In this document: positions 478-57,525 of the stretch, one piece after another | Numbering within the stretch: the first letter of the stretch is position 1 | Layout: each line of letters opens with the position of its first letter | Origin: an uncultured Pelagibacteraceae bacterium | GTDB lineage: Bacteria > Pseudomonadota > Alphaproteobacteria > Pelagibacterales > Pelagibacteraceae | Length of the DNA stretch: 57,525 nucleotides | Direction of reading: 5' to 3' | Assembly (NCBI GenBank): GCA_902631265.1 | Contig: CACOXX010000005.1 | Coordinates: 1-57,525 of the forward strand | Position numbers and translations under genes: made by a program | The notes under the pieces: generated by a model | What the model saw: the letters and a program-made list of their open reading frames with translations, nothing else | Told to the model about the DNA's origin: nothing | Database searches by the model: none

Positions 478-535
478 GTTTTTGCTGATAAATTTTCAGA
501 TTAATTAACATATAGGCAAGTAACGATCAAGTAAG

Positions 536-551
536 AGCTTTAAAAAAAGCT
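536..551. repeat. Short inverted repeat between priA and atpH
   Basis: AGCTTT and AAAGCT separated by four bases, 14 bases past the priA stop. It could be a weak terminator, but neither strand has a T-run right after the stem. Confidence 0.2.
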
Positions 552-564
552 ATAAAAATAACAG

Positions 565-2520
565 TTAATTGAAATTTATTGGATCAACATCAACTGAAAG
601 TTTTATTCCCTTTGGGATATTAAATCTTTTAAGAGCCATTTTTAAGTTTTTCTGAGCTGAAATATTCTTTGCAGATCTTAATAAAATCCTATTCCTGTAA
701 TTTCCTCTTACTTTATAAATTGGAGCATTTACTGGTCCAAGAATCTTGACTTTAAGGTTTTTTTTTAAAAATTCTGACAATTCAAATGATGCTTGGTCAG
801 ATTTTTTGCTATTTTGAGCACTAACTATTATTGATATAAATCTCTCATAAGGAGGCAATAAATTCTTTTCCCTCAGAATTAATTCTTTATCCAAAAAAAT
901 ATAAGGATCAGGATTTACGATTTGTGATATGTAATCTGAGTTTAAATTCATCGTTTGAAAATAAACAGTTGAAGGCTTTCCTTCTCGACCGGCTCTGCCT
1001 GATAGTTGGTGGTAAAGCTGTACAGTTTTTTCAGCACTTCTTAAATCGTAACCTCTAGAAGAATAATCAATATCCAATACAATAATACAGTTCAGATTAG
1101 GAAAATGAAAACCTTTTGAAATCAGTTGAGTACCAATTAAAATATTAATCTTATTATCTATTATCTCTTGGATTTTAGAAGATGAGTCTTTTTTATTCAT
1201 GGTGTCACTTGAGAAAATTAAAGTGTTTTTGTCAGGAAAAATCTTTTTTATTTCCTCGAGTATTTTTTCAACACCTGGACCACTAAAGCTAAAATCACAT
1301 TGGAGGTCTTTTGAAGAGCAGTCTCGCTTCATCTCTGCAGAATAACCGCAATAATGACACAAAACTTTATTTCTTATCTTATGATAAACTAGATTGATTG
1401 AGCAAAAAGGACAGTCAAAAGTTTTCAAACAGTTTTTACATAATACAAATGGCGAGTAACCTCTTCTATTTACAAAAAATAAAACCTGACTATTCCTAGA
1501 TAAATTATCTTTTACTTTTTCAATCAATTCCTCTGAAATAAATGTTCCTTTTTTTTCACTTTTTTTTATTTTTATAATTTTATAATCCGGTAGCTTTGCA
1601 TCTCGAAATCGCTCAGTTAATCTAGATGAATGAAACTTTTTTCCTTTAATATTTTTATAAGTTTCTATAGATGGAACAGCAGATATCAAGTTGATAGGTA
1701 TATTTTCAAATGATGCTCTGGATATTGCCATATCTCTAGCATGATAATTTACTCCCTCATCTTGTTTGTAAGATTGGTCGTGTTCTTCATCTATTGTAAT
1801 AAGACCTAAATTTTTAAAAGGTAAAAATAAAGCCGACCTAGCCCCAATAACGACTTTAATCTTTCCTGATTTCAAGCCACTCCAAATTATCTTTTTATTT
1901 TTTTTTGTGACTGATGAATGCCAAATAGCTGGTTTAAAACCAAAAAAAGAAATGAAATTTTTTTCAAATTCTTTTGTAAGGCCAATTTCAGGTAGTAAAA
2001 TTAATGATTGATAGCCTTCATTTAGTTTTTTTTTTATTGCATTAAAATAAACTATTGTTTTTCCTGAACCTGTAGTTCCTTGTAATACATGAACTCTAAA
2101 ATTTTTATCCCCCTTTTCTATTTCTAATAAACTTTTTTTTTGCTGGGTACTAAGACTATAATCTTTGGTTGGGTATCTTTTATTAAACTGATCGTAAATG
2201 TCTGCTTTATAATCTTCTTCTAAGGAATTATTTACTAGATGAAGCTTTAACGCCATACCCTTTGGAACAATATTGTAATCAGAAAACCAATTTAAAAATT
2301 TTATTGTTTTATTTTCTAAAGGATCTTTTGTAAATTTTTTTATAATATCTTTGATTTTAAATTTTTTTTTAGGCCCTTCCTCAAAACCATCCCAGATAAT
2401 ACCTATCATTTTTTTTTTACCAAAAGGGACTTCTACATAATCGCCAATTTTAAGTTTTTCTTTTGAAGTGTATGTAAATGGGTGATCAAAAATATTTGGT
2501 AATAGTACTGGTACTTTCAT
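565..2520 (-). CDS. priA: Primosomal protein N' (replication restart helicase PriA)
   Basis: A superfamily 2 3'-5' DNA helicase that reloads the replisome at stalled forks. At 651 residues it is somewhat shorter than E. coli PriA (about 730). Visible motifs: Walker A GTTGSGKT (about 148-155), the DEEH box (244-247), an SAVPS version of motif III (280-284), and the C-terminal helicase part with QLISKGFHFPN and HQLSGRAGREG. Eight zinc-site cysteines lie at 361, 364, 370, 373, 388, 391, 401 and 408. The last pair is spaced C-x6-C instead of the usual C-x2-C (see findings). It follows lpd by 18 bases at the end of the TCA block and precedes atpH. Confidence 0.95.
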   Translation of the reverse strand: MKVPVLLPNIFDHPFTYTSKEKLKIGDYVEVPFGKKKMIGIIWDGFEEGPKKKFKIKDIIKKFTKDPLENKTIKFLNWFSDYNIVPKGMALKLHLVNNSLEEDYKADIYDQFNKRYPTKDYSLSTQQKKSLLEIEKGDKNFRVHVLQGTTGSGKTIVYFNAIKKKLNEGYQSLILLPEIGLTKEFEKNFISFFGFKPAIWHSSVTKKNKKIIWSGLKSGKIKVVIGARSALFLPFKNLGLITIDEEHDQSYKQDEGVNYHARDMAISRASFENIPINLISAVPSIETYKNIKGKKFHSSRLTERFRDAKLPDYKIIKIKKSEKKGTFISEELIEKVKDNLSRNSQVLFFVNRRGYSPFVLCKNCLKTFDCPFCSINLVYHKIRNKVLCHYCGYSAEMKRDCSSKDLQCDFSFSGPGVEKILEEIKKIFPDKNTLIFSSDTMNKKDSSSKIQEIIDNKINILIGTQLISKGFHFPNLNCIIVLDIDYSSRGYDLRSAEKTVQLYHQLSGRAGREGKPSTVYFQTMNLNSDYISQIVNPDPYIFLDKELILREKNLLPPYERFISIIVSAQNSKKSDQASFELSEFLKKNLKVKILGPVNAPIYKVRGNYRNRILLRSAKNISAQKNLKMALKRFNIPKGIKLSVDVDPINFN

Positions 2521-2538
2521 TTTGTAATGAAAAAAATT

Positions 2539-3939
2539 TTAAGAGTGTATTTGTCTTTTTTCAACAGATAAAGCCGCCTCTTTTATCGCCTCCGAAAATG
2601 TTGGATGAGCATGGCACGTTCGTGCGATATCCTCAGAGCTTGCTCCAAATTCCATTGCAACTGCCATTTCTGCGATCATTTCTCCTACATGAGGCCCTAT
2701 CATATGTACTCCTAAAACTTTATCAGTATCTTTATCGGCTAAGATTTTTACGAATCCTTCAGGCTCGTCAATTGCTTTAGCTCTTGAGTTGGCCATAAAA
2801 GGAAACTTTCCAATTTTATAAGACTTATTCTTTTCTTTTAGTTGCTCTTCGGTTAAACCTATACTTGCTACCTCAGGAGTAGTGTAAATAACCCCTGGAA
2901 TTAAATCGTAGTTAACATGACCAGATTGGCCTGCAATTATTTCTGCAACTGCGATTCCTTCCTCTTCAGCTTTGTGAGCTAACATTGGACCATCAATTAC
3001 ATCCCCAATAGCGTAAATATTTTTTGCTGAAGTTTGAAATTTTTTGTCAATTTTAATCCTTCCTTTTTCATCTGATTTTACTCCTGCAGAATTCAAATTT
3101 AAATTAGATGTAAACGGTTTTCTTCCAATTGATATTAGGGCTACGTCACAATTAAATTCTTTACTATCTCCATTTTTATCTGACGTTGAAATTTGTACCC
3201 CATTGTTAGTTTTTTTAATGCTAGTTACTTTTCTATTTAAGTGAAACTTTATATTTTGTTTCTTCAATATTTTCATAAACTCATCTGAAATCTCTCTATC
3301 CATCCCAGGTGTTATATGATCTAAAAATTCGATTACATTCACTTCAGCTCCTAAACGAGACCAGACAGAACCCATTTCTAAACCTATATAACCTCCACCA
3401 ACGACAACTAGACTTTTTGGTACCTCTTTTAAAGATAGGGCACCTGTCGAAGAGACGATTGTTTTTTCATCGAATTCTACGTTGGGCATGGGCATTGCCT
3501 CAGATCCAGTTGCAATAATAATATTTTTTGCCTCAATCTCTTTTTTTTTACCATCTTCGCTTTTTACTGATATTTTCTTATCAGAAACAAAACTGCCGAA
3601 ACCTTTTAAGTAAGTTACTTTGTTTTTTTTGAATAAAAATTCAACACCCTTGGTCAAAATTGAAACTGCTTTTTCCTTATTTTTCATCATCTTATCTAAA
3701 TTAAGTTTTACATCTCCTGTTTCAATTCCAAGTTTAGAAAAATTTTTAGCCTTTTTAAAATTCTCAGACAAATTTAATAAGCTTTTTGAAGGAATACATC
3801 CAATGTTTAAACATGTTCCACCTAGAGCACCTCTAGCTTCTATACAAGCAGTTTTTTGACCTAACTGAGCTAACCTTATAGCGCAAACATATCCGCCTGG
3901 TCCGCCACCTATTACTACCGAGTCAAATTTTTCTGTCAT
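2539..3939 (-). CDS. lpd: Dihydrolipoamide dehydrogenase (E3)
   Basis: A cytoplasmic FAD disulfide oxidoreductase that reoxidises dihydrolipoyl groups with NAD+. 466 residues, the usual length. It shows the N-terminal GGGPGGY FAD motif, the redox-active pair in GGTCLNIGCIPSK (about residues 41-53), the NAD-binding GGGYIGLEMGS segment (about 180-190) and the C-terminal catalytic HAHPT motif. It lies three bases after sucB, so it most likely serves 2-oxoglutarate dehydrogenase first. It could also supply pyruvate dehydrogenase and glycine cleavage; no second E3 is visible in the window. Confidence 0.97.
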   Translation of the reverse strand: MTEKFDSVVIGGGPGGYVCAIRLAQLGQKTACIEARGALGGTCLNIGCIPSKSLLNLSENFKKAKNFSKLGIETGDVKLNLDKMMKNKEKAVSILTKGVEFLFKKNKVTYLKGFGSFVSDKKISVKSEDGKKKEIEAKNIIIATGSEAMPMPNVEFDEKTIVSSTGALSLKEVPKSLVVVGGGYIGLEMGSVWSRLGAEVNVIEFLDHITPGMDREISDEFMKILKKQNIKFHLNRKVTSIKKTNNGVQISTSDKNGDSKEFNCDVALISIGRKPFTSNLNLNSAGVKSDEKGRIKIDKKFQTSAKNIYAIGDVIDGPMLAHKAEEEGIAVAEIIAGQSGHVNYDLIPGVIYTTPEVASIGLTEEQLKEKNKSYKIGKFPFMANSRAKAIDEPEGFVKILADKDTDKVLGVHMIGPHVGEMIAEMAVAMEFGASSEDIARTCHAHPTFSEAIKEAALSVEKRQIHS

Positions 3940-3942
3940 AAA

Positions 3943-5265
3943 CTATAAATTTAAAAATAATCTTCTTGGATCTTCCAAGTTATCTTTTGTATTTTTTAAA
4001 AAAGATACTGCCTCTTTCCCATCAATTATTCTATGATCATATGATAAAGCTATATACATTATTGGTCTAATTTTAATTTCACCATTTACCACATGTGGCC
4101 TTTCTACAATATTGTGCATTCCTAAAACCCCGGATTGAGGTAAATTTAAAATTGGTGTTGATAACATTGATCCATAGACACCACCGTTACTGATAGTAAA
4201 TGTCCCACCCTGAAGATCGTCAATTGTAATCTTTCCATCTCTTGCTTTATCAGACAATTCTTTAATTTTCTTTTCTATGTCTGCGAAAGACATTTCATCT
4301 GCATTTTTTAAGACCGGAACCACAAGACCTTTATCGGTGCCTACTGCAAAACTTATATTATAATAGTTCTTATAAATTATGTTCTCTCCCTCGATTTCAG
4401 CATTAATTGCTGGAAAAAGTTTTAGACTTTCAATGCAAGCTTTAACAAAAAAGGACATAAAACCTAGTTTTATGCCAAACCTATCTTGAAAATCACTTTG
4501 ATTTTCTTTTCTCATGTCAATTATACCGCTCATATCAACTTCATTAAAAGTTGTAAGCATTGCTGCATTATCTTGAGCTTGTTTGAGTCTTTTAGCAATT
4601 GTTAGCCTTAGCCTTGTCATCTTTATTTTTTCTTCTTGGCCAAATTTTATCTTTCGCTCAGAAGGAGCCGGCTTTACATTCATTAAGCTTAATAGATCAC
4701 CTTTAGAAATTCTTCCACCTTTGCCAGTTCCTTGAATTTTTTTTAGATCAATTTTATTATCTGCAGCAATCTTTCTTACAGCTGGGGAAATTGATAAATC
4801 TATTGTTTTTTTTGATTTCTCTTTTTTTGATGATACTTCTTCAGTAAGAACTAATGGTTCTTCTTTTTTTGTATCATATTCGGGTTCTGAAGTTTCTTCC
4901 TCTTTATCAAATAGTTTTGTTTCAACTTCTTTTGATTCTGCTTCTTTTTTTAAACTAACAACATTATCCTCGTTTTTAATTGGTTCATCCTTTTTTGGTT
5001 TATCTTCACTAACCTCTTTTTGAGAACTTCCACCAATTATTGATCCAAGAACAGCACCAACTTCAACAGTCGATCCATTTTGTGCATTTATTTCGCTTAG
5101 TACTCCATCTGATGGAGATGGAACTTCTAAATTTACTTTATCTGTTTCAAGTTCTACGACAGGTTCGTCAGCCTCAACACTATCACCTTTATTTTTTAAC
5201 CATTTGGCTACTGTTGCCTCTGTTATGCTTTCGCCTAAAACTGGGACTACAATTTTGTCTGACAT
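3943..5265 (-). CDS. sucB: Dihydrolipoyl succinyltransferase, E2 of 2-oxoglutarate dehydrogenase
   Basis: The E2 core subunit, which transfers succinyl groups from lipoyl to CoA. Domain order over 440 residues: one lipoyl domain (1-75) with the lipoyl lysine in [12 protein letters not shown] near residue 43; a long charged Lys/Glu linker (about 80-155); the E3-binding domain beginning ISPAVRKIA (about 160-195); and the catalytic domain ending in SYDHRIIDG with the active-site His and Asp. The linker is longer and more low-complexity than in E. coli. Its start overlaps the stop of sucA by one base. Confidence 0.96.
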
Positions 5266-10192: not shown

Positions 10193-12661
<2,469 letters not shown>

Positions 12662-12685
12662 CGGCGAAATTATTTAATTAAGTAA

Positions 12686-13456
12686 TTAGCTAGTTGCAAG
12701 CATTTTCTTAATTGAGGCTATTGCTTTTGCTGGATTTAAACCTTTGGGGCAAGCATTAGTACAATTCATAATAGTATGACACCTATATAGCTTAAGTTCA
12801 TCTGCAACTTTTTTTAATCTCTCTTTTCTGTCTTCATCTCTTGAATCAATTATCCATCTGTAAGCCTGTAAAAGAACGGCAGGGCCTAAATATTTATCGC
12901 CATTCCACCAATAACTTGGACAAGATGTTGAGCAGCATGCACACATTATACACTCGTAAAGCCCATCAAGTTTAGCTCTATCTTCTTTGGATTGAATATT
13001 CTCTTTTTCAGTTTTTGAGGTTGTTTTTAACCACGGTTCAACAGACTCATATTGTTTATATAAAGTGCTGAGGTCCCCAATTAAATCTTTTAAAACTTTT
13101 AAATGTGGTAATGGATAAATATTAATATCTCCTTTAATTTCAGCGTGTGGCTTCGTACAAGCTAACCCATTTTTTCCATCCATATTCATAGCGCATGATC
13201 CACATACTCCATGTGCACATGATCTTCTGTAAGCAATTGATGGATCTATTTCATTTTTAATTTTGTTCAACAAATCTAAAACTTTTGAAGGACAATTATT
13301 CATATCTACTTCATAAGTGTCGATCCTTGGATTTTCTCCAGTAGATGGATCCCATCTATAGATATTTACTTTACGAATGTTTTTTGAGCCAGTCTTGTCT
13401 TTGAAATACTTGCCTTTTTCAACTTTAGAATTTTGTGGCAAGTTTATCTGAACCAT
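12686..13456 (-). CDS. sdhB: Succinate dehydrogenase iron-sulfur subunit
   Basis: Carries electrons from the SdhA flavin to ubiquinone. 256 residues. All cluster ligand sets are visible: the [2Fe-2S] site in [13 protein letters not shown] plus a later Cys (LACTKP), then [12 protein letters not shown] and [17 protein letters not shown] for the [4Fe-4S] and [3Fe-4S] clusters. The start overlaps the stop of sdhA by one base. Confidence 0.97.
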
Positions 13457-15231
13457 TAATAAACTCTTTCTTGTGGGGGAAAGTACTGTACATCATTTGA
13501 TAGTGTAGATCTGTGGACAGGTCTGTAGTCAATCTTAGTTTTTTTGCCATCACACCAAGATAATGTATGCTGCATAAATTTTTCATCATTTCGCTTTGGA
13601 AAATCTTCTCTAGCGTGAGCTCCTCTACTTTCTTTTCTGTGATAAGCAGAGTCCATTGTAGTTATCGCTTGTCTAATCAAATTATCGAATTCTAATGTTT
13701 CTACAAGATCAGTATTAAAAATTAGAGACTTATCTTTGACAGAAAGGTCATCCATACCCTCAAAAGGTTTTCTAATTTCATTTACGCCCTCTTTTAAAGT
13801 TTTTTCAGTTCTGAAAACAGCACACTTAGACTGCATTGTTTTTTGCATTGCCAATCTTAAATCTGCAGTATTATTTGTGCCAGATGCATTTCTAAGTCTA
13901 TCAAATCTTTCTAAACATTTATCAGTCTCAGACTGTGAAATTTCCTCGTGGGGTGTACCTGGTTTTACCAACTCTGCTGCGCGCTTAGCTGCAGCTCTTC
14001 CAAAAACAACTAGATCAATTAAAGAGTTTGATCCGAGCCTGTTAGCTCCATGAACAGACACGCAAGCCGCTTCACCAATTGCCATTAATCCTGGAACAGT
14101 TTTTTCTGATCCATTTAAAGTTAAAACTTCAGCTTTATAATTTGTGGGGATACCTCCCATATTATAATGGACAGTTGGAACTACTGGTATAGGTTCTTTT
14201 GTTACGTCTACATTCGCAAATAATCTTGAGGACTCTGATATACCTGGTAGTCTTTCTTCTATAACTTTTGGATCTAAATGGTTTAAATGTAAGTGCACGT
14301 GATCTTTTTCATTTCCAACCCCTCTACCTTCATTAATTTCAACCGCAATTGATCTACTTACAACATCTCTTGAGGCAAGATCTTTAGCTTTTGGAGCATA
14401 TCTTTCCATAAATCTTTCGCCTTTGGAATTTACTAAATAACCACCTTCGCCCCTCACACCTTCTGAAATTAAAGTTCCATGACCATAAATTCCTGTTGGA
14501 TGAAATTGGACGAACTCCATATCCTGTAAAGGTAAGCCAGCTCTAAGCACCATAGCATTTCCATCTCCAGTGCATGTATGAGCTGAAGTTGCTGAGTAAT
14601 AAACTTTTCCGTAACCACCTGTTGCGATTATTGTTATGTGAGATCTAAATCTATGAATAGTTCCATCATTCAAATTCCAAGCAATTAATCCTTTGCACTG
14701 ACCATCTTTCATTAAAAGATCCAATGCAAAATACTCAATGAAAAATTCTGTGTTATGTTTTAAAGCCTGACCATATAAGGTATGCAAAATAGCATGGCCA
14801 GTTCTATCCGCTGCAGCGCAAGTTCTTTGAACAGGTTCGTTACCGTAATTTTTTGTCATTCCTCCAAAAGGACGCTGATATATTTTTCCATCTTCAGTTC
14901 TGCTAAAAGGAACACCATATTTTTCTAATTCTAAAACTGCTCTTGGAGCTTCTTTGCACAAATACTCGATACAATCTTGATCACCTAACCAATCTGAACC
15001 TTTAACAGTATCGTACATGTGCCATCTCCAATCATCTTCACCCATATTACCTAAAGCTGCAGAGATACCACCTTGTGCTGCAGAAGTGTGACTCCTTGTT
15101 GGAAAAACTTTAGATACGCATGCAGTTTTTAATCCTGCTTCACTTAATCCAACTGCAGCTCTTAAGCCTGAGCCTCCAGCGCCTAAAACAACTACATCAT
15201 ATTCGTGATCAATAATTTTGTAAGATTTCAT
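13456..15231 (-). CDS. sdhA: Succinate dehydrogenase flavoprotein subunit
   Basis: Oxidises succinate to fumarate at a covalently bound FAD. 591 residues, standard. It shows the [13 protein letters not shown] motif, the flavinylated histidine in [11 protein letters not shown] (about residue 47), EFVQFHPTG, the YNMGGIPTN substrate segment and [11 protein letters not shown]. It is preceded by sdhD with three bases between. Confidence 0.97.
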
Positions 15232-15234
15232 AAT

Positions 15235-15558
15235 TTATAAGTTAGATATAAGTATTATTGTAAATAATGGAATAATCAAAGATGACAAAAAAACACCAAT
15301 ATTTAGGAGCTTTTTAGTGCTCTCCACATGAATATAGTCCTCAAAAACTTCACTTATACTCAAAGCTGAATAAAAAAAAATTGAGACAAGGAATAAAGAA
15401 AAAAATAACTTTGATGGTTGAGAAGATAAAAATGCCAGGACTTCATTATAGCTAGAATTATAAAGTGAAACAAAATTCACTAAAAACCAAAACATTAAAG
15501 GCACCATTATTAAAGATGATACTTTTAAAAAAAGCCATTTTTTTGTTGCTTTGATCAT
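15235..15558 (-). CDS. sdhD: Succinate dehydrogenase membrane anchor SdhD
   Basis: A membrane anchor of complex II with three predicted helices in 107 residues. It is assigned from position (sdhC-sdhD-sdhA-sdhB) and the family EDYIH segment at 73-77, whose Tyr75 matches the quinone-site tyrosine of E. coli SdhD (Tyr83). In most bacterial and mitochondrial SdhD proteins a histidine eleven residues before the Asp of this DY motif ligates heme b; here that position is Tyr63. The start overlaps the sdhC stop by four bases. Confidence 0.9.
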   Translation of the reverse strand: MIKATKKWLFLKVSSLIMVPLMFWFLVNFVSLYNSSYNEVLAFLSSQPSKLFFSLFLVSIFFYSALSISEVFEDYIHVESTKKLLNIGVFLSSLIIPLFTIILISNL

Positions 15559-15941
15559 AATGGTAATAAACCCCTAGATGAATAGATTAATATTGTTAAT
15601 ATAAAAGAACCAAAAATAACTAAAAGTCCGGTTACTTTTGTTGTTTTTAATTCAAAACCCAAACCGATATCCCAAAACCAATGTCTTATTTCACTTAAAA
15701 TTTGAAATGCATAAGACCATATAAATCCAATAATAAAAAATTTTCCAAATATTGAGTTTAAAAATATTTTAAAAATCTCATAGGCACCTTCACCAAAAAA
15801 TAAACTACTTGCCCAAATACAAATAAAGATTGACAAAAAATAATTTACAATTCCTGTTATTCGGTGTGAAATAGACACAAGAGATGATACGTGCCAATTA
15901 TATATCTGTATATGAGGAGATAATGGATTATTTTCTTTCAT
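15555..15941 (-). CDS. sdhC: Succinate dehydrogenase cytochrome b556 subunit SdhC
   Basis: A membrane anchor of complex II: 128 residues with three helices. The family opening NPLSPHIQIY and the quinone-site segment SISHRITG (Ser23 and Arg27 match E. coli Ser27 and Arg31) are intact, as is RHWFWD at 86-91. In E. coli the heme ligand is the first His of H-x3-GIRH; here that position is Gln80 and the motif reads Q-x3-EIRH. Together with SdhD this suggests an anchor without a standard heme b. Confidence 0.93.
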   Translation of the reverse strand: MKENNPLSPHIQIYNWHVSSLVSISHRITGIVNYFLSIFICIWASSLFFGEGAYEIFKIFLNSIFGKFFIIGFIWSYAFQILSEIRHWFWDIGLGFELKTTKVTGLLVIFGSFILTILIYSSRGLLPL

Positions 15942-15943
15942 AA

Positions 15944-16936
15944 TTATCTTTTAATATATGCCTCCGCGATTTCAACGGCATTTAAAGCTGCGCCCCTTAA
16001 TAGATTGTCAGAAACAATCCACATATTCAATGAATTTTTTTTACTATTATCTTTTCTAATTCTTGAAATAAAAGTTTCATTTTTACCCTCTGCATCTATT
16101 GGCGTGATATACCCACCATCAGAATTCTCATCAACCACTTTACAGCCTTCTGAAGCAGTTAAGAGTTCTTTTACTTTTTTTATTGTGAAATCATTTTCAA
16201 ATTCAATATTTACTGACTCTGCATGAGAAACAAGTACAGGAATTCTGACACATGTTGCGGTAATATCAATTTTAGTACCCAATATTTTATTAGTTTCTTT
16301 AATCATTTTTAGTTCTTCTTTAGTATAACCGTCATCAGAAAAACTATCTATATGAGGTATTGCATTAAATGCAATTTGCTTTGTGAAATTTTTCACTTCA
16401 AAATTTTTGTTATCTAATATCGATTTTGTTTGATCGATCAATTCATCCATAGGTTTTTTTCCAGCTCCAGAAGTGGATTGATAAGTGGAAATCACTATTC
16501 TTTTAATTTTGAAAGCATCATTCAATGATTTCAAAACAATGACAAGCTGTGCAGTTGAACAGTTGGGATTGGCAATTATATTTTTTTTAACATTTTTTAA
16601 ATGGTCTTTATTTACTTGAGGAACTATCAAAGGTACATCAGGATCCATTCTAAAAAAACTTGAATTATCAATTACAACTGAATGTTTAGCTGCCAAAGGA
16701 ACATATTTTTCAGAAATTGTTTTTCCAGCTGAAAAAAAGGAAATATTCACTTTGGAAAAATCAAATTTTTCCAAATTTTCAACTTTGATATCTTTATCCT
16801 TAAATTTAAGTGTAGTTCCGGCACTATTAGATGACGCTACAAAGTATAAGTTATCAATCGAAATTTTTTTACTATGTAAAACTTCAATAATTTTTCTACC
16901 CACATTTCCTGTGGCACCTACTATTGCAATATTCAT
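15944..16936 (-). CDS. asd: Aspartate-semialdehyde dehydrogenase
   Basis: Reduces aspartyl phosphate to aspartate semialdehyde, the branch point to lysine, diaminopimelate, threonine and methionine. 330 residues. It shows the N-terminal GATGNVGRKI nucleotide motif, the catalytic cysteine in NPNCSTAQLV, SGAGKKPMDEL and the C-terminal RIPVLVSHAESV with the active-site His. It lies 15 bases after dmdA and two before sdhC on the same strand. DapF, another enzyme of the pathway, is encoded at 28.6 kb. Confidence 0.96.
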   Translation of the reverse strand: MNIAIVGATGNVGRKIIEVLHSKKISIDNLYFVASSNSAGTTLKFKDKDIKVENLEKFDFSKVNISFFSAGKTISEKYVPLAAKHSVVIDNSSFFRMDPDVPLIVPQVNKDHLKNVKKNIIANPNCSTAQLVIVLKSLNDAFKIKRIVISTYQSTSGAGKKPMDELIDQTKSILDNKNFEVKNFTKQIAFNAIPHIDSFSDDGYTKEELKMIKETNKILGTKIDITATCVRIPVLVSHAESVNIEFENDFTIKKVKELLTASEGCKVVDENSDGGYITPIDAEGKNETFISRIRKDNSKKNSLNMWIVSDNLLRGAALNAVEIAEAYIKR

Positions 16937-40378: not shown

Positions 40379-41530
40379 TTAGTTTCTAAATCTTAAATTA
40401 CCTCTATGAAGATCACTTATTTTGGTACATCCCATTAATTTCATATCTCTTTGTAACTCAGCTTTGTATTGTCCTAAAGCTCTTTCAACACCTGCCTGAC
40501 CAGCTGCTGCTAATGCATACAAATATAACCTTCCACCAGCACATGCTTTTGCACCTAATGATAAAGCCTTAAGCATGTGAGTACCTCTGTGAATTCCTCC
40601 TTCACAAATTACATCAAGTTTGTCACCAACTGCATCTACAATTTCTGCAAGCTGATCAAAGGGAGATCTCGATCCATCAAGTTGTCTTCCTCCATGATTT
40701 GAAACCATTATCCCTGTACATCCAATATCAACAGCTTTTTTTGCGTCCTCTACACTCATAATTCCTTTTAATGCAAAATGGCCTCCCCATTGAGAACAAA
40801 GTTTTTCTGCATCTTTCCAATTCATAGATTGGTCCAGCATGGTAGAAAAATAATTTCCAATTGAAGAATTTGTACTCGTACCTTCTTTAACAAAATCTTG
40901 TAGATGAGGTAATTCAAACTTACCTTTTGTTAAATAATTTATTCCCCACATTGGTTTAGTAGCAAAGCTAAATAAACTTGATAAAGTTAATTTAGGTGGA
41001 GATGTAAAACCTGTTCTTAAATCTCTTTCACGATTTCCCCCAGTAATGGTATCAACTGTCAAGGCCATTACATCAAACTTTGCGGCTTTTGCTCTTTCCA
41101 AACACGATGTGTTTAATCCTCTGTCTTTATGAAAATAAAATTGAAACATCTTAGGGGTGTCAATCATAGATGAGATTTCCTCAACACTTACTGTTGCAAG
41201 TGCAGAAACTCCAAACATAGTATTAAATTTTTGAGCTGCTTTACCCACTGCTCTCTCTCCATCGTAATGAAAAAGTCTTTGAAGTGCCGTGGGTGAAAGA
41301 TAAAAAGGAAGATCTAATTTCTTTCCAAAAATGGTAGTTGATAAGTCAACATTCTCTACACCCCTTAATACATTTGGAACTAAATCCACATCATCAAATG
41401 CACTCGTATTTCTAGCGTAAGTAATTTCGTCATCCGCAGCCCCATCAATATAATGAAATATTGGTGATGGAAGTTTCTTCTTAGCAAGTTTCCTAAAATC
41501 ACGAAAATTATGACAATTCGAAAGTTTCAT
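40379..41530 (-). CDS. lldD: FMN-dependent alpha-hydroxyacid dehydrogenase (LldD/L-lactate type)
   Basis: 383 residues of the FMN-dependent alpha-hydroxyacid oxidase family. It shows FHYIDGAADDE near the N-terminus with the conserved Tyr, QFYFHKDRG, LTVDTITGGNRERDLR, and the catalytic His and Arg in VSNHGGRQLDGS (about 279-290). It probably oxidises L-lactate to pyruvate; other L-2-hydroxyacids are possible. It lies 18 bases upstream of the aminotransferase gene in the same direction. Confidence 0.87.
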   Translation of the reverse strand: MKLSNCHNFRDFRKLAKKKLPSPIFHYIDGAADDEITYARNTSAFDDVDLVPNVLRGVENVDLSTTIFGKKLDLPFYLSPTALQRLFHYDGERAVGKAAQKFNTMFGVSALATVSVEEISSMIDTPKMFQFYFHKDRGLNTSCLERAKAAKFDVMALTVDTITGGNRERDLRTGFTSPPKLTLSSLFSFATKPMWGINYLTKGKFELPHLQDFVKEGTSTNSSIGNYFSTMLDQSMNWKDAEKLCSQWGGHFALKGIMSVEDAKKAVDIGCTGIMVSNHGGRQLDGSRSPFDQLAEIVDAVGDKLDVICEGGIHRGTHMLKALSLGAKACAGGRLYLYALAAAGQAGVERALGQYKAELQRDMKLMGCTKISDLHRGNLRFRN

Positions 41531-51169: not shown

Positions 51170-52312
51170 ATGAATTTTGAAGCATCCAGAGCGAAAGCTA
51201 TTGATAAATTAAATAATTTTATAGAAAAAAATCTTTCGGATTATTCAAGGTTGAGAAACTTTGATTTTGGACCTGATAAAAGAGATAACGTTTCGTGCTT
51301 ATCGCCCTATGTTACTCATGGGGTTCTTAATGAAATTGAAATTATTAAAAAATCGTTAGCGAAGTTTTCCTTTTCAAAAAATGAAAAGTTTATACAGGAG
51401 GTCCTTTGGAGAACTTATTGGAAAGGTTGGCTTGAATTAAGACCAAATGTATGGACCGATTATTTGGTAAGCTTAAACAGTATAAGAGAAAAATTTAAAG
51501 ATAATAAAGAATACTTAAATGCGATAGAAGGAAATACTAACATCGAATGCTTTAATGAATGGGTAAAAGAACTAAAAGAAAAAAATTATCTTCATAATCA
51601 TACGAGAATGTGGTTTGCAAGTATCTGGATATTCACATTAGATTTACCTTGGCAACTAGGTGCAGAATTTTTTATGCAACATCTTTATGATGGTGATGCT
51701 GCATCTAATACTCTTGGATGGAGATGGGTTGCTGGAGTACAAACTAAAGGAAAACATTATTTAGCAAGTGAATGGAATATTAAAAAATTTACTAATAATA
51801 GATTTAACAATATTAAATTAAATGAAAACGCAACACCAAAAGTTTCTGAAAAAACATACTCAATTGTAAAACAAAATTTTGCTAATTCTCAAGATATTGA
51901 TCAAAATAATTTATTAGTTTTTGAAAATAACTTATCTTTTGAAACAACCGATTTTAAAGATTTTAAATTTAAAAAGATTTACTTGATATCAAACAAAAAT
52001 GAAAACAGATCCATTAAACTAAGTGAGAAAGTAATTGAATTTAAGTCTCATTTAATTAAAGACCAAGAACAAAGAATAAAAAATCAGTCAATTGAATGTG
52101 AGATTAAAGATATAAGTGAGGTCAAAAATATAGGTGAAAGTATTGTTTGTTTATATCCCACTGTTGGTGAAAATTTGGATTATCTAAATTCAAATAACAT
52201 TAAACTTAATTTTTTATACAGAAAATTAGATCAGTTTTCTTGGCAATATTGTAATAAAGGTTTTTTTAATTTTAAAAATTATATCCCAAAAATAATTACA
52301 ATGTTTACTTAG
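51170..52312 (+). CDS. Photolyase/cryptochrome-like flavoprotein lacking the N-terminal antenna domain
   Basis: 380 residues. The N-terminal part (about 1-215) is the FAD-binding domain of photolyases: [47 protein letters not shown] and [20 protein letters not shown] normal photolyase begins with a Rossmann-like antenna domain of about 200 residues; here the FAD domain starts at residue 1. The C-terminal part (about 225-380) has an alternating strand-helix pattern ([31 protein letters not shown]) that may be a divergent or permuted antenna domain. It is tail-to-tail with a DUF2256 gene, overlapping it by eight bases. Whether it repairs DNA or signals light is not evident. Confidence 0.85.
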
Positions 52313-52776: not shown

Positions 52777-54005
52777 TAAAATTTATCTCTAATAAAATAC
52801 TTATAAAATTTATAAGGAGTAGCATAAATAGGTTTTGACGCCACATCATCAACCATAACAACTTTAGGGTTCCAGCTAAACGCAAAGAAGAAAAAAACTA
52901 TTATAAAAATTTTTTTGGGCACTTTCGAAATATAATTTGCTTGAACATTTTGTTTGGAAAGTTCAATAAAATTTTCTTTTATTAAATATAAAAATGCTAG
53001 TAAGTAAAAGGTATAGCTTATATGCACTACTCTCGCCCAATCATACATAACTAAATATAAAATTGTACTTGGTAAAAATGCTAAAAAAAAGGGAAAAAAA
53101 AGATTTTTGAATTTTGAGATAAACAATACCTGTTTATTATTATTAACTCTCGAAAAAATGGAGAGCAAATAAAGTGGAAAAAATCCAACTATAATTATAA
53201 TTAAATATCTTATAGCATAAATTAATTTAAATTTTTCTAAAAACATTCTAAAAAGCTCAGAAAAAGAGTTTGCGGATTGTTGTCCCACGAAACCACATGA
53301 CATATAACATGACTCACCAAATTCTTTTTTAAGAAAATCTCGCATTACATTATAATTTTCTACTGGAAAAGGATTAAGATAAATCTGTATTGCTATTAAA
53401 ATTGATATTAAAAAACTTAATAAAATATAGTAAAATTTCTTATCTAAATTCTTTATTTCAAAAACAAATAGATCAACTAAAAAAATAAAACTGAAAAACA
53501 GAAATACGGGTTCCCATATTAAAACACTTATTGGGAATAATATTAGTTTATAAATAAATTGAACTTTAAAACTTTTTATATCAAATAATAAGTAAGATAA
53601 AAAAATCATAAAAATTATTAACTCTTTTCGTCCCAAAACTTCTATTTCTGCAACAGGATATAAAATAAAAATTGGGGAAAAAATCGCTAGAACTATTAAT
53701 CTATTTTTAAATAAATCTTTACAAAATAAATAAACTAAAAAATAATAGCTTATGAAAAAAAATAATTGAAAAATTAAAATCGAATCTCTTAATTTTAACG
53801 ACGCCATAGTAGAAAAATTTGTTATTAATTCCCCGATTAATCCCCTTCGAACAAAACCTCCTTCATAGTTTATAAGCCAATCTGAAAGACTAGAATCGTT
53901 TCCAACATTATGTTTTGAATAAAGAAAAAATGCTCCAAAAAAAATGAGTGTATAGACATAAATTTGAAAATAACCTGACCAACTTTTTTTTAAATTCTCA
54001 CTCAT
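52776..54005 (-). CDS. Polytopic membrane protein, possible GT-C-type glycosyltransferase
   Basis: I do not recognise a named family with certainty. 409 residues, about ten membrane helices, and an N-terminal extracytoplasmic loop with SDWLINYEGGFVRRGLIGEL (about 40-59), a motif I associate with uncharacterised membrane proteins near glycosyltransferase genes. The next gene upstream, one base away, is a GT2 glycosyltransferase that could supply a lipid-linked sugar, so a GT-C or polymerase-like role is plausible (inference). The region is very AT-rich. Confidence 0.6.
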   Translation of the reverse strand: MSENLKKSWSGYFQIYVYTLIFFGAFFLYSKHNVGNDSSLSDWLINYEGGFVRRGLIGELITNFSTMASLKLRDSILIFQLFFFISYYFLVYLFCKDLFKNRLIVLAIFSPIFILYPVAEIEVLGRKELIIFMIFLSYLLFDIKSFKVQFIYKLILFPISVLIWEPVFLFFSFIFLVDLFVFEIKNLDKKFYYILLSFLISILIAIQIYLNPFPVENYNVMRDFLKKEFGESCYMSCGFVGQQSANSFSELFRMFLEKFKLIYAIRYLIIIIVGFFPLYLLSIFSRVNNNKQVLFISKFKNLFFPFFLAFLPSTILYLVMYDWARVVHISYTFYLLAFLYLIKENFIELSKQNVQANYISKVPKKIFIIVFFFFAFSWNPKVVMVDDVASKPIYATPYKFYKYFIRDKF

Positions 54006-54006
54006 C

Positions 54007-54714
54007 TTAATTTATTAAGAGATCAATCTTTACTCTCAATAGTCCTATAAAATTAATTAGTGCAATTTTTGGAAGTCTCCAAACATGAAAGATTTGAGTA
54101 TCACCATATTTTCTTTTTTTATGTTTAATTCCTATTTCTAATATTTTGTAACCCTTGTAAATTGCTCGTGCATTGTATTCCCAAAAAAAACCCTCTGGCA
54201 TAGATGGAGTAAAATTTTGAAGAGATTTGTAAACATCCTTACGTATTAAAGAAAAAGCAAAACTTGGGTCCTTTAATTTAACTTTAAAAAAAAAACCATA
54301 AACTAATCTAGCGAAATCTGAAAAAAATTTCCTATATAAGAAATCTTTTCTTTCAATTCTATATCCAACAACTACATCGGCTTTTTTTCTTGCATTCCAG
54401 AACTTAAAAATTTGTCTTGGATCACATTGACCATCGGAGTCCATTATTAACAAATAATCAGCTGTAGCTTTTTTGATTCCTGACATTACTGCTGTCGAGT
54501 AACCTTGTTTTTCTCTTTTAGATAAAATGTGAACTTTAAATTTTTTTTTCAATCTTTTTAAAATTTCTAAAGTATTATCGGAACTTCCATCTTCACAAAT
54601 CAAAAAAGAAAACTTAATTTTTTTTTTTAAAATGTTATTGACTTTTGTTATGTGATTTTTAATATTTTTGCCCTCATTATGAGCAGGCATTAAAATTTGC
54701 AAAGAATTAGGCAT
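54007..54714 (-). CDS. Family 2 glycosyltransferase (dolichyl-phosphate-mannose synthase-like)
   Basis: 235 residues, GT-A fold, no clear membrane helix. It shows the start LQILMPAHNEGKNIKNHI, CEDGSSDNTLEIL, the metal-binding LIMDSDGQCDP (about 90-100) and a C-terminal FFWEYNARAIYKGYKI. It likely transfers a sugar from a nucleotide donor to a lipid phosphate or envelope polysaccharide. It is the gene before the polytopic membrane protein, forming a probable two-gene unit. Confidence 0.88.
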   Translation of the reverse strand: MPNSLQILMPAHNEGKNIKNHITKVNNILKKKIKFSFLICEDGSSDNTLEILKRLKKKFKVHILSKREKQGYSTAVMSGIKKATADYLLIMDSDGQCDPRQIFKFWNARKKADVVVGYRIERKDFLYRKFFSDFARLVYGFFFKVKLKDPSFAFSLIRKDVYKSLQNFTPSMPEGFFWEYNARAIYKGYKILEIGIKHKKRKYGDTQIFHVWRLPKIALINFIGLLRVKIDLLIN

Positions 54715-54741
54715 TTTTAGTTTTTGTACACTATTATGATT

Positions 54742-56700
54742 TTAAAAAGTATTTTTTTTAATGAAATTGTCTGCCTCTTTTAAGATCAGTTTCTTTCTAA
54801 CTGGGTTCATTTTATCATAAATTCTTACCATCATTGATAATCGAGGATTTTTTAAAAAGAATTTTCTATTTTTATTGATAAATCTCCAATAAAGACCGTC
54901 CATAATATTGCACCAATCTCCTTTTTTAAAATCCATCATTTTTAAAAAATAACTTGAGCCACAAATATATGGTTTAGTTGCAAATATTCCACCATCGCTG
55001 AACAGCCCCATACCGTAAACATTTGGAGACATTACCCAATCAGACGAATCAACAAACATTTCCATAAACCATCTATAAACATAAATTGGTTTAATCTCAC
55101 AAAGATTCATTATGTTAGATAAAATCATTAGTCTTTCTATGTGGTGAGACCAACCATGATCGTTAGCATTTTTAATTGCATAGTCCAACGGTGGTAAACC
55201 AGTGTTTCCATCATACCATGAAGTTTTCATCTTTCTGAAATGCTTAAAGAAGTTTCCATTTTCCAATTTCGAGTCGAAATTTTGATAAATTCCTCTCATA
55301 AATTCACGCCAGCCAATTACCTGTCTAATATAACCTTCCAAAGAATTAATTCTTATTTTTTTCTTTTTGTGACTAGATAAAATTCTTTCTAATACTATTT
55401 CAGGTGTAATTATTCCTAGATTTAAATATGGACTAAGCGCACTATGGAATAATATATTATTACTTTGATCAACAGCATCTTCGAAGTCTCCAAATAAATT
55501 TGATTTTTCTTTAATGAAAAAATCTAATAGTCTCATCACATCTTTGAATTCTGTTGCAAACCAGAAACTTTTTGTTGAACCAGGATGATTCGAAAAATTT
55601 TTTTCAATTACCGCTTTCAGATTTTTTGTGTGAGAAGTTTCATTTATTTTTGGAAAGGTTGGTATTTTAATACCTTTGGGAAGTTTTTTTCTATTATCTT
55701 CATCAAAACTCCATTTGCCCCCAACTGGATCTTCACCATTCATTAAAACATTCATTTTTTTTCTTGTTTCTTTATAAAATACTGCCATGAATGGCTTTTT
55801 TGATTTAGATAAATATTTTTTAAAATCATCCCTTGAATTCAAAAACATTGGGGTTTTAACTAAATTAAATTTTATTTTATTTTTTTTAATAAAATCCAAA
55901 ATTTTTTTCTCAAAAGGTTTATCCTCAATTTCAAAAAAAGAAATTTCTTTTATCTTATTTTTTTTAATAACTTTTTGTAATTTTGTTATATAGTCATTTT
56001 TGAAATCTGAGTTGTCAATTTTAGAGTAGATTACTTTAAACAATTTACCAATTGTATGATCAGTAAAAAATTCTGAGACAAATCCAATTTTAATTCTTTC
56101 GCCCAATTTTTGATTTATTAAAACTTTGTGATTGAGAGGTTCATAAATTTTTTTAAGAGCTTTAACCATCTTTTTATTTATTTCTAAATTATCTTTATCA
56201 GTGTAGGTAATTTCAAATAATGGTGGGGATATTATTTGATCATTATCATAATTTAAATTTTTATTAGAGCTTATAATTTCATCTAAACCCTGATTAATTT
56301 TTTTCCTGTAAATATCAATCTCTTCCTTGTTTTTAGCGACCAAAGGAGAAAGCAATTTTTTTTGTAATTCCCATTTTTCATTTATCAAATTATTTTTTAA
56401 TCCCTCATTAATTATTTCTACCATCTCTACAATTTTATCTTGATTTTTTAAAACACTTGCGAGAAATTGATAAGCAAATGGTTCATCAGGTTTGATTTTT
56501 AAAATCTTTTTAATACATTCTTCTGCTTTTTGAAAATTTCCAGAAAAAGCATAGGAGTGGCTTAAATTACGGAGTATGGACAAATTATCAGGATAGTCTT
56601 TTAAAAGTTTTTCAAATAATTGAGAGGATTTTCCAAATTCTTTTTTTTGAAGATGACTATATGCTCTTTTAAAAAGCTCATCTGCTAAATATTTATTCAC
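54742..56700 (-). CDS. Chimeric protein: TPR/SPINDLY-like N-terminus joined to a photolyase-related (DPRP/PhrB-like) part
   Basis: 652 residues. Residues about 10-110 are TPR repeats. About 158-233 look like the start of a GT41/SPINDLY domain (ERIKIGFVSEFFTDHTIGKL at 201-220). From about 235 onward it is photolyase-related: FYKETRKKMNVLM, EDPVGGKWSFDEDNRKKLP, LFHSALSPYLNLGIITP, VIGWREFMRGIY, HHIERLMILSN, DWVMSPNVYGMG and GGIFATKPYICGSSY, ending with CNIMDGLYWRF. The DPRP N-terminal 90 or so residues are absent. Of the four Fe-S cysteines of PhrB-type enzymes, Cys534 and Cys597 have plausible counterparts, but the central C-x2-C is replaced by a shortened DFKKGDW. Function is therefore uncertain. 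Confidence 0.8.
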   Translation of the reverse strand: MNKYLADELFKRAYSHLQKKEFGKSSQLFEKLLKDYPDNLSILRNLSHSYAFSGNFQKAEECIKKILKIKPDEPFAYQFLASVLKNQDKIVEMVEIINEGLKNNLINEKWELQKKLLSPLVAKNKEEIDIYRKKINQGLDEIISSNKNLNYDNDQIISPPLFEITYTDKDNLEINKKMVKALKKIYEPLNHKVLINQKLGERIKIGFVSEFFTDHTIGKLFKVIYSKIDNSDFKNDYITKLQKVIKKNKIKEISFFEIEDKPFEKKILDFIKKNKIKFNLVKTPMFLNSRDDFKKYLSKSKKPFMAVFYKETRKKMNVLMNGEDPVGGKWSFDEDNRKKLPKGIKIPTFPKINETSHTKNLKAVIEKNFSNHPGSTKSFWFATEFKDVMRLLDFFIKEKSNLFGDFEDAVDQSNNILFHSALSPYLNLGIITPEIVLERILSSHKKKKIRINSLEGYIRQVIGWREFMRGIYQNFDSKLENGNFFKHFRKMKTSWYDGNTGLPPLDYAIKNANDHGWSHHIERLMILSNIMNLCEIKPIYVYRWFMEMFVDSSDWVMSPNVYGMGLFSDGGIFATKPYICGSSYFLKMMDFKKGDWCNIMDGLYWRFINKNRKFFLKNPRLSMMVRIYDKMNPVRKKLILKEADNFIKKNTF

Positions 56701-56753
56701 AATTCAAGAAGAATATATCATTTTATCAAAAATGGTATTTTAATAATCAATGA

Positions 56754-57470
56754 TCAAGTCAATTTTGATCTTCCACCATCAACGCCAATTATTTGACCTG
56801 TTATCCAAGAACTTTCATCAGTTAATAAAAACTTTGCCATAGCCGCTGCATCTTTACCTTCACCTATCCTTTTCATGGGGTGTGCTTTAGCTATACCTTC
56901 AGCAATTAATTTATTCTTAAGCATTGGTTCAGCAATTTTTGAATTAGTCAAACTAGGTGCTATACAATTTACTCTGATGTTTGGAGCAAATTCGGCTGCT
57001 AAAGAAACAGTCAATCCTTCCAAAGCTCCTTTTACAGAAGCGATAATGCTGTGGTTTGTAAATCCTCTTCTGACTGCAACAGTTGAAAAAATTACAACAG
57101 AGCCTTTATTCTTTTTTAAACTTTCTTGAAAGTTTTTAATTGTTTCTACAATTGGGTAAAAATTTAAATCAAAACATTTTTGGAAGTCATCTTTTTTTAC
57201 CATTCTTAATGGCTTTAGGTCTATAGAGCCTACACAGTATGCAATTCCTTTTATTTCATCATTAGCAAACTCGTTTTTTAAGTTTTCAATTTTTGCATTG
57301 TCAAGAACATCCACTACAGAATATTTGAAACCAGTTTCAGATGAAATGTTTTTTAAACTTTCTTCATTTCTTCCAATAAGTTGAACATCTTCATTATTTT
57401 GGGCCATCATTTTAGATAAATTTGAGCCGATAGAACCTGTCGCACCAAAAATTAAATATTTTCCTGACAT
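56754..57470 (-). CDS. Short-chain dehydrogenase/reductase-like protein lacking the catalytic Tyr
   Basis: 238 residues, Rossmann fold. It shows the GATGSIGSNLSK nucleotide motif (9-20), VVDVLDNA, VIFSTVAV with Ser129, then Lys147 in SVKGALEGLTVSLAAEFAP and RVNCIAPSLTNS, and the C-terminal SSWITGQIIGVDGG. In classical SDRs Lys is preceded four residues earlier by the catalytic Tyr (YxxxK); here that position is Ile143. NAD(P) binding looks intact. It stands 53 bases upstream of the chimeric gene in the same direction and is divergent from the gene at the right edge. Confidence 0.88.
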   Translation of the reverse strand: MSGKYLIFGATGSIGSNLSKMMAQNNEDVQLIGRNEESLKNISSETGFKYSVVDVLDNAKIENLKNEFANDEIKGIAYCVGSIDLKPLRMVKKDDFQKCFDLNFYPIVETIKNFQESLKKNKGSVVIFSTVAVRRGFTNHSIIASVKGALEGLTVSLAAEFAPNIRVNCIAPSLTNSKIAEPMLKNKLIAEGIAKAHPMKRIGEGKDAAAMAKFLLTDESSWITGQIIGVDGGRSKLT

Positions 57471-57498
57471 ATCTTATAATAGTATTTATAAATAAATT

Positions 57499-57525
57499 AT
57501 GAAATTGTTTATTACACTTGGAAAT
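57499..57525 (+). CDS. Start of a divergent gene (9 codons, cut by window edge)
   Basis: ATG at 57499-57501 opens a frame reading MKLFITLGN up to the edge. It is divergent from the SDR gene, with 28 bases between. The beginning of photolyase-related (DPRP) proteins typically has a strand followed by LGDQL; ITLGN would fit that, but nine residues cannot establish it. Confidence 0.4.

Follow-up and report, generated by a model that had tools for sequence, protein, structure and literature searches.

The 652-aa reading frame near the right end of the window, in which the front of a TPR/GT41 glycosyltransferase runs into most of a DPRP (prokaryotic 6-4 photolyase-like) protein, is very probably artefactual, produced by whole-genome amplification and the assembly that followed: an inverted chimeric joint lying close to a contig end; a GT41-photolyase fusion is probably not a real feature of this organism. 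The window, the whole stretch of DNA analysed here, is the entire contig C5 (57,525 bases) of the genome designated G000, and the GT41, short-chain dehydrogenase (SDR) and DPRP genes are most likely all ordinary and intact in the living cell. The right end of the window is organized as follows.

54742-56700, minus strand: chimeric 652-aa frame, GT41/TPR residues 1-222 followed by DPRP residues 64-495, with F-K at the joint common to both
54742-56040, minus strand: DPRP gene minus its first 63 codons
56035-56040: joint, hexamer TTTAAA, which the closest relative has at each of the two parent sites
56035-56700, minus strand: front part of the TPR/GT41 glycosyltransferase gene, with TPR repeats only and without a PF13844 match; the whole gene is 555 aa in the closest relative
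56035-57525: inverted stretch, equivalent to G200:C2 139376-140871, plus strand
56754-57470, minus strand: SDR gene, 238 aa, within the inverted stretch; between the GT41 and DPRP genes in relatives
57499-57525, plus strand: first nine DPRP codons (MKLFITLGN), the contig's last 27 bases, on the strand opposite to the rest of the DPRP gene

The chimeric frame and its two halves

The frame is open throughout from a GTG start codon. Pfam assigns TPR repeats to its front and, behind them, DPRP (PF04244, from profile position 61 only) and then FAD_binding_7, which bears out the original prediction that two unrelated halves share one frame and that both proteins are cut inside their folds. The joint itself lies at residues 221/222, about 13 residues away from the position first proposed (near residue 235, 55990-56015), and about 63 photolyase-like residues are absent where some 90 had been estimated; the match on that side ends at base 4001 of locus L031, with which DPRP codon 64 begins.

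Locus L031, from the single-cell isolate AG-916-O13 (genome G200), is the closest relative and the best match to the chimera, with 96% amino-acid identity over query residues 221-652. In ungapped alignment to L031 the GT part, the DPRP part and the SDR are 82.7%, 96.1% and 97.5% identical in protein and 82.4%, 93.7% and 90.7% identical in DNA, and no decay is seen in either half or in the SDR. An earlier suggestion of a young pseudogene pair thus finds no support in decay, and the undecayed state of all three parts means that the inversion, if real, is very recent.

The PF04244 match begins at profile position 3 in the L031 parent, leaving the chimera without a complete N-terminal domain, and the PF13844 match of the L031 GT41 parent (residues 373-542, E 2.7e-13) is found neither in the chimera nor in its front part. 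Because the first 63 photolyase-like residues and the entire GT41 catalytic match are absent, the chimera would be expected, judging by its sequence, to have neither photolyase-like nor GT41 activity.

Parent genes in related genomes

In L031 the parent genes are complete and arranged as follows.

510-1355, plus strand: folD
1347-3014, minus strand: TPR/GT41 glycosyltransferase, 555 aa
3067-3783, minus strand: SDR, 238 aa
3812-5299, plus strand: DPRP, complete, 495 aa
5327-6043, plus strand: GT2

The order GT41-SDR-DPRP is also that of locus L040, which has another gene set downstream of DPRP. We compared 80 related loci (L031-L110), kept from 542 that were confirmed. The DPRP alignment starts at residue 5 or earlier in 79 of these 80 and at residue 8 in the remaining one, and the SDR is on the strand opposite to DPRP in every one; GT41 is on the SDR strand in 11 loci and was not found in the other 69 within the flank examined. 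The head-to-head SDR-DPRP pair is therefore general to these loci, with GT41 as a variable neighbour.

Two further features of this part of the window are recorded. The stretch downstream of DPRP (52796-54740) encodes GT2 and a protein of 409 aa that matches nothing in Pfam; it is kept in L031 and L036, goes unmatched at DNA level in several further close relatives, is replaced by different genes in L040, and looks like an exchangeable cassette. A second photolyase-like protein (51170-52312, plus strand, 380 aa) has only a partial FAD_binding_7 match in Pfam (residues 74-198) and is without the N-terminal photolyase domain.

The joint is an inversion relative to the closest relative

Window positions 1-56040 are collinear with the minus strand of G200:C2, running from 198336 down to 141034 (about 56 kb). 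At the joint the alignment jumps 1.66 kb (from 141034 to 139376, 1658 bases apart) and then switches strand, reading back over the GT front and then the SDR. This second arm covers window positions 56027-57525 on the plus strand of G200:C2. The two arms thus overlap imperfectly by 14 bases (56027-56040), within which lies the shared hexamer. When 200,000 random inverted joints were sampled within a 40-kb portion of this DNA, at least 6 bases were shared in 0.45% of them. As GT41 and DPRP are divergent genes, an inverted joint makes both co-directional, and its being in frame would be a one-in-three chance event.

Inverted joints of this kind were surveyed at the ends of contigs C1-C27 of the 43 contigs of G000 (54 ends), 28 of which could be placed on the examined part of G200 with no more than 25 bp of the end unaligned. 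An inverted joint is present at one of the 28, the right end of C5. Contig C6, which passes between two G200 contigs at the ends of both, was left uncounted as a joint.

Other differences between the two genomes are seen elsewhere. About 1.1 kb of the window (40384-41518) aligns to two adjoining stretches of G200:C2 near 156.7 kb, and seems to reflect either an extra tandem copy in the relative or a collapsed copy in the window. On contig C15 (about 11403-16542), compared with G200:C1 91473-112262, the alignment skips about 17 kb of the relative against about 1.8 kb of G000, which suggests a difference in gene content or an island.

The same joint in other genomes

A search with the whole chimera gave some match in 133 of 150 genomes; residues 1 to 652 were matched by the window's own genome only, and among the matches listed none from the 149 other genomes carries the joint. 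A 101-aa probe spanning the joint was then matched in 287 of 399 genomes including G000 (286 of the 398 others of the genus), with 112 giving no match. Among the matches listed, best first, positions 1-101 of the probe are covered by the window's own genome only, the joint is absent from those of the 398 other genomes, and no frame near 653 codons occurs in them. The original prediction had named the same architecture in many genomes as the sign of a conserved fusion; among the listed matches in the other genomes searched that architecture does not appear. In at least 21 genomes besides G000 both halves are among the listed probe matches, on one contig, on opposite strands and divergent.

Several candidates for a wider distribution were rejected. 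GT41 matches with 47-53% identity reach deep into the probe in G069 (3-99), G349 (4-98), G312 (3-97), G455 (3-95) and G380 (3-93), but their frames of 564-568 codons are of GT41 length and the matches are read as chance extension. Locus L074, matching query residues 156-651, is an ordinary DPRP from residue 1 beside an SDR, and the match in G025 (query 191-651) belongs to a frame of 499 codons.

The contig end and the missing pieces

The last 27 bases of the window are identical in DNA to the DPRP start of L031, and the contig stops in DPRP codon 9, 163 bp short of the joint's mirror position (G200:C2 140871 against 141034). Contig C4 carries GT41 residues 410-555 and folD at its end (69753), and stops 556 bp short of the breakpoint on the GT side. 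For the remaining pieces, GT41 residues about 224-409 and DPRP residues 1-57, there is no credible match elsewhere in G000; the sole other match, 41 bases on contig C6 (E 8e-4), is read as chance.

G000 is 72.46% complete in 43 contigs, its close relatives are named as AG- isolates, and exactly 200 bp of G200 fall between contigs C25 and C3, a gap which fits the trimming of 100 bp from each contig end described for a published single-cell pipeline (PMC5519541). From completeness, contig number, the AG- relatives and this gap we infer that G000 is an amplified single-cell genome. An attempt to derive the precise position of the contig end from assembler words plus trimming did not fit exactly, falling about 63 bp short with 100-bp trimming; if 100 bp was indeed trimmed, about 63 bp still separated the original end from the mirrored joint, and the true DPRP adjacency was then not in the assembly graph.

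Origin of the joint

The joint very probably originated in amplification. Leftward copying through DPRP would be interrupted when the growing strand lost its template; that strand would re-prime, via the few complementary bases of TTTAAA, at a site 1.66 kb away within GT41, on a neighbouring strand of opposite polarity, and copying would then return across the front of GT41 and the SDR toward the DPRP start. The assembler would follow this chimeric molecule, and the contig would stop just ahead of re-entering DPRP sequence that had already been assembled. Three observations count against an artefact: an unrearranged second copy of the locus was looked for in G000 and not found, the contig ends somewhat before the expected stop of a complete foldback, and an inverted joint at one of 28 placed ends means that joints of this kind are not abundant in the assembly.

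The strongest alternative, which we consider unlikely, is that a 1.66-kb segment of the chromosome really was inverted, very recently and through microhomology, with GT41 and DPRP each broken internally and the contig ending at an unrelated coverage gap; such an event would destroy both enzymes and leave an in-frame hybrid. Inverting G200:C2 139376-141034 gives the same left joint, so that the joint and its flanks are equally compatible with this reading, which also accommodates the lack of an unrearranged copy in G000 and is in keeping with the variation in SAR11 gene content around the locus. A real inversion should, however, have a second joint, from the DPRP front to the GT41 back, and this is absent from the G000 assembly. 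It would also make a coincidence of the contig end within 163 bp of the second breakpoint (the chance that a random contig right end lands within a given 163-bp stretch is 0.85%), and it is weakened further by the intact state of both halves and by the lack of the joint among the listed matches from the 398 other genomes of the genus. The stop of C4 at 556 bp from the GT-side breakpoint is a gap that both explanations must accept. An artefact is thus likelier than a recent inversion, and it is slightly more doubtful again that one SAR11 cell underwent a genuine 1.66-kb microhomology inversion that broke both genes and yielded an expressed TPR-photolyase hybrid. Of the three options left undecided in the original prediction, a recombinant gene, a pseudogene pair or an assembly joint, the last is the one favoured here; the inversion of adjacent genes near a contig end had been overlooked.

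A conserved, functional fusion, in which the TPR module would steer the photolyase-like domain, is hardly credible. The frame is single and uninterrupted by stops, with a plausible start and the two halves in frame, but the joint was not found among the listed matches in the other genomes examined, the chimera has neither the GT41 catalytic match nor DPRP residues 1-63, which relatives possess, and the joint is inverted and at a contig end.

Words on which assemblers usually join are longer than 6 or 14 bases. A purely computational misassembly on a short shared word, with no chimeric DNA molecule behind it, is accordingly just as implausible, for although the joint lies on 6 shared bases near a contig end, neither these identical bases nor the 14-base imperfect overlap reach such a length, which makes a molecule or reads crossing the joint likelier.

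With an amplification artefact as the preferred explanation, the locus illustrates that an apparent domain fusion near a contig end can be an inverted joint of neighbouring genes. Since divergent neighbours become co-directional and a third of the joints keep the frame, the resulting fusion proteins are long and look plausible, and they may enter protein databases. Were the inversion true, it would be a gene fusion caught at birth, and an uncommon glimpse of how genes arise and are lost in a streamlined genome.

Comparison with known systems

The GT41 parent matches OGT, HMW1C-like and SPINDLY structures and resembles GT41/SPINDLY/OGT-type glycosyltransferases in having TPR repeats and a GT41 C-terminal match, whereas the chimera keeps the TPR repeats and only the first part of the next region. 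The L031 DPRP parent is similarly alike over nearly its full length to the prokaryotic 6-4 photolyases (PF04244), with matches to the solved structures of CryB (3zxs, E 2.7e-79) and PhrB (4dja, E 1.6e-77), and the chimera differs from them in lacking residues 1-63. The iron-sulfur cluster of PhrB is bound by cysteines 350, 438, 441 and 454, as given in the published account of FeS-BCP proteins (PMC3204975). None of these has a counterpart in the L031 parent when aligned to 4dja: the parent lacks the 10-residue loop that holds positions 438 and 441, and it has P opposite 350 and N opposite 454. Cysteine is conserved at four other alignment columns in all 80 DPRP loci. In being without the cluster cysteines the SAR11 parent differs from PhrB as does subgroup M with PromaPL, so that prokaryotic 6-4 photolyases lacking the cluster are already known from that report (PMC9178010).

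The closest parallel to the joint is the inverted chimera formed during multiple displacement amplification (MDA), where inverted joints of segments less than 10 kb apart that share a few bases are the predominant type of chimera. Published figures put the frequency at about one junction per 22 kb (PMC1855051, Lasken and Stockwell 2007) and, in a marine single-cell study, at one chimera per 13-27 kb (PMC2668756), and raw single-cell assemblies are described as containing inversions relative to references that are removed by cleaning (PMC5794965). The chimeras of Lasken and Stockwell were found in reads, while the present joint is known from an assembled contig in a genome whose amplification is itself inferred. 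In that data set 406 of 475 chimeras were inverted, 337 of these 406 joined segments less than 10 kb apart, priming on 2-21 shared bases was common, and 93.5% of the inverted joints under 10 kb shared bases (PMC1855051). The joint in the window is alike in the opposite orientation of its segments (1-56040 on the minus and 56027-57525 on the plus strand of G200:C2), in its distance of 1.66 kb, below 10 kb, in its 6 shared bases, TTTAAA, as judged on the relative's sequence, and in being private to one sample among the matches listed from the genus.
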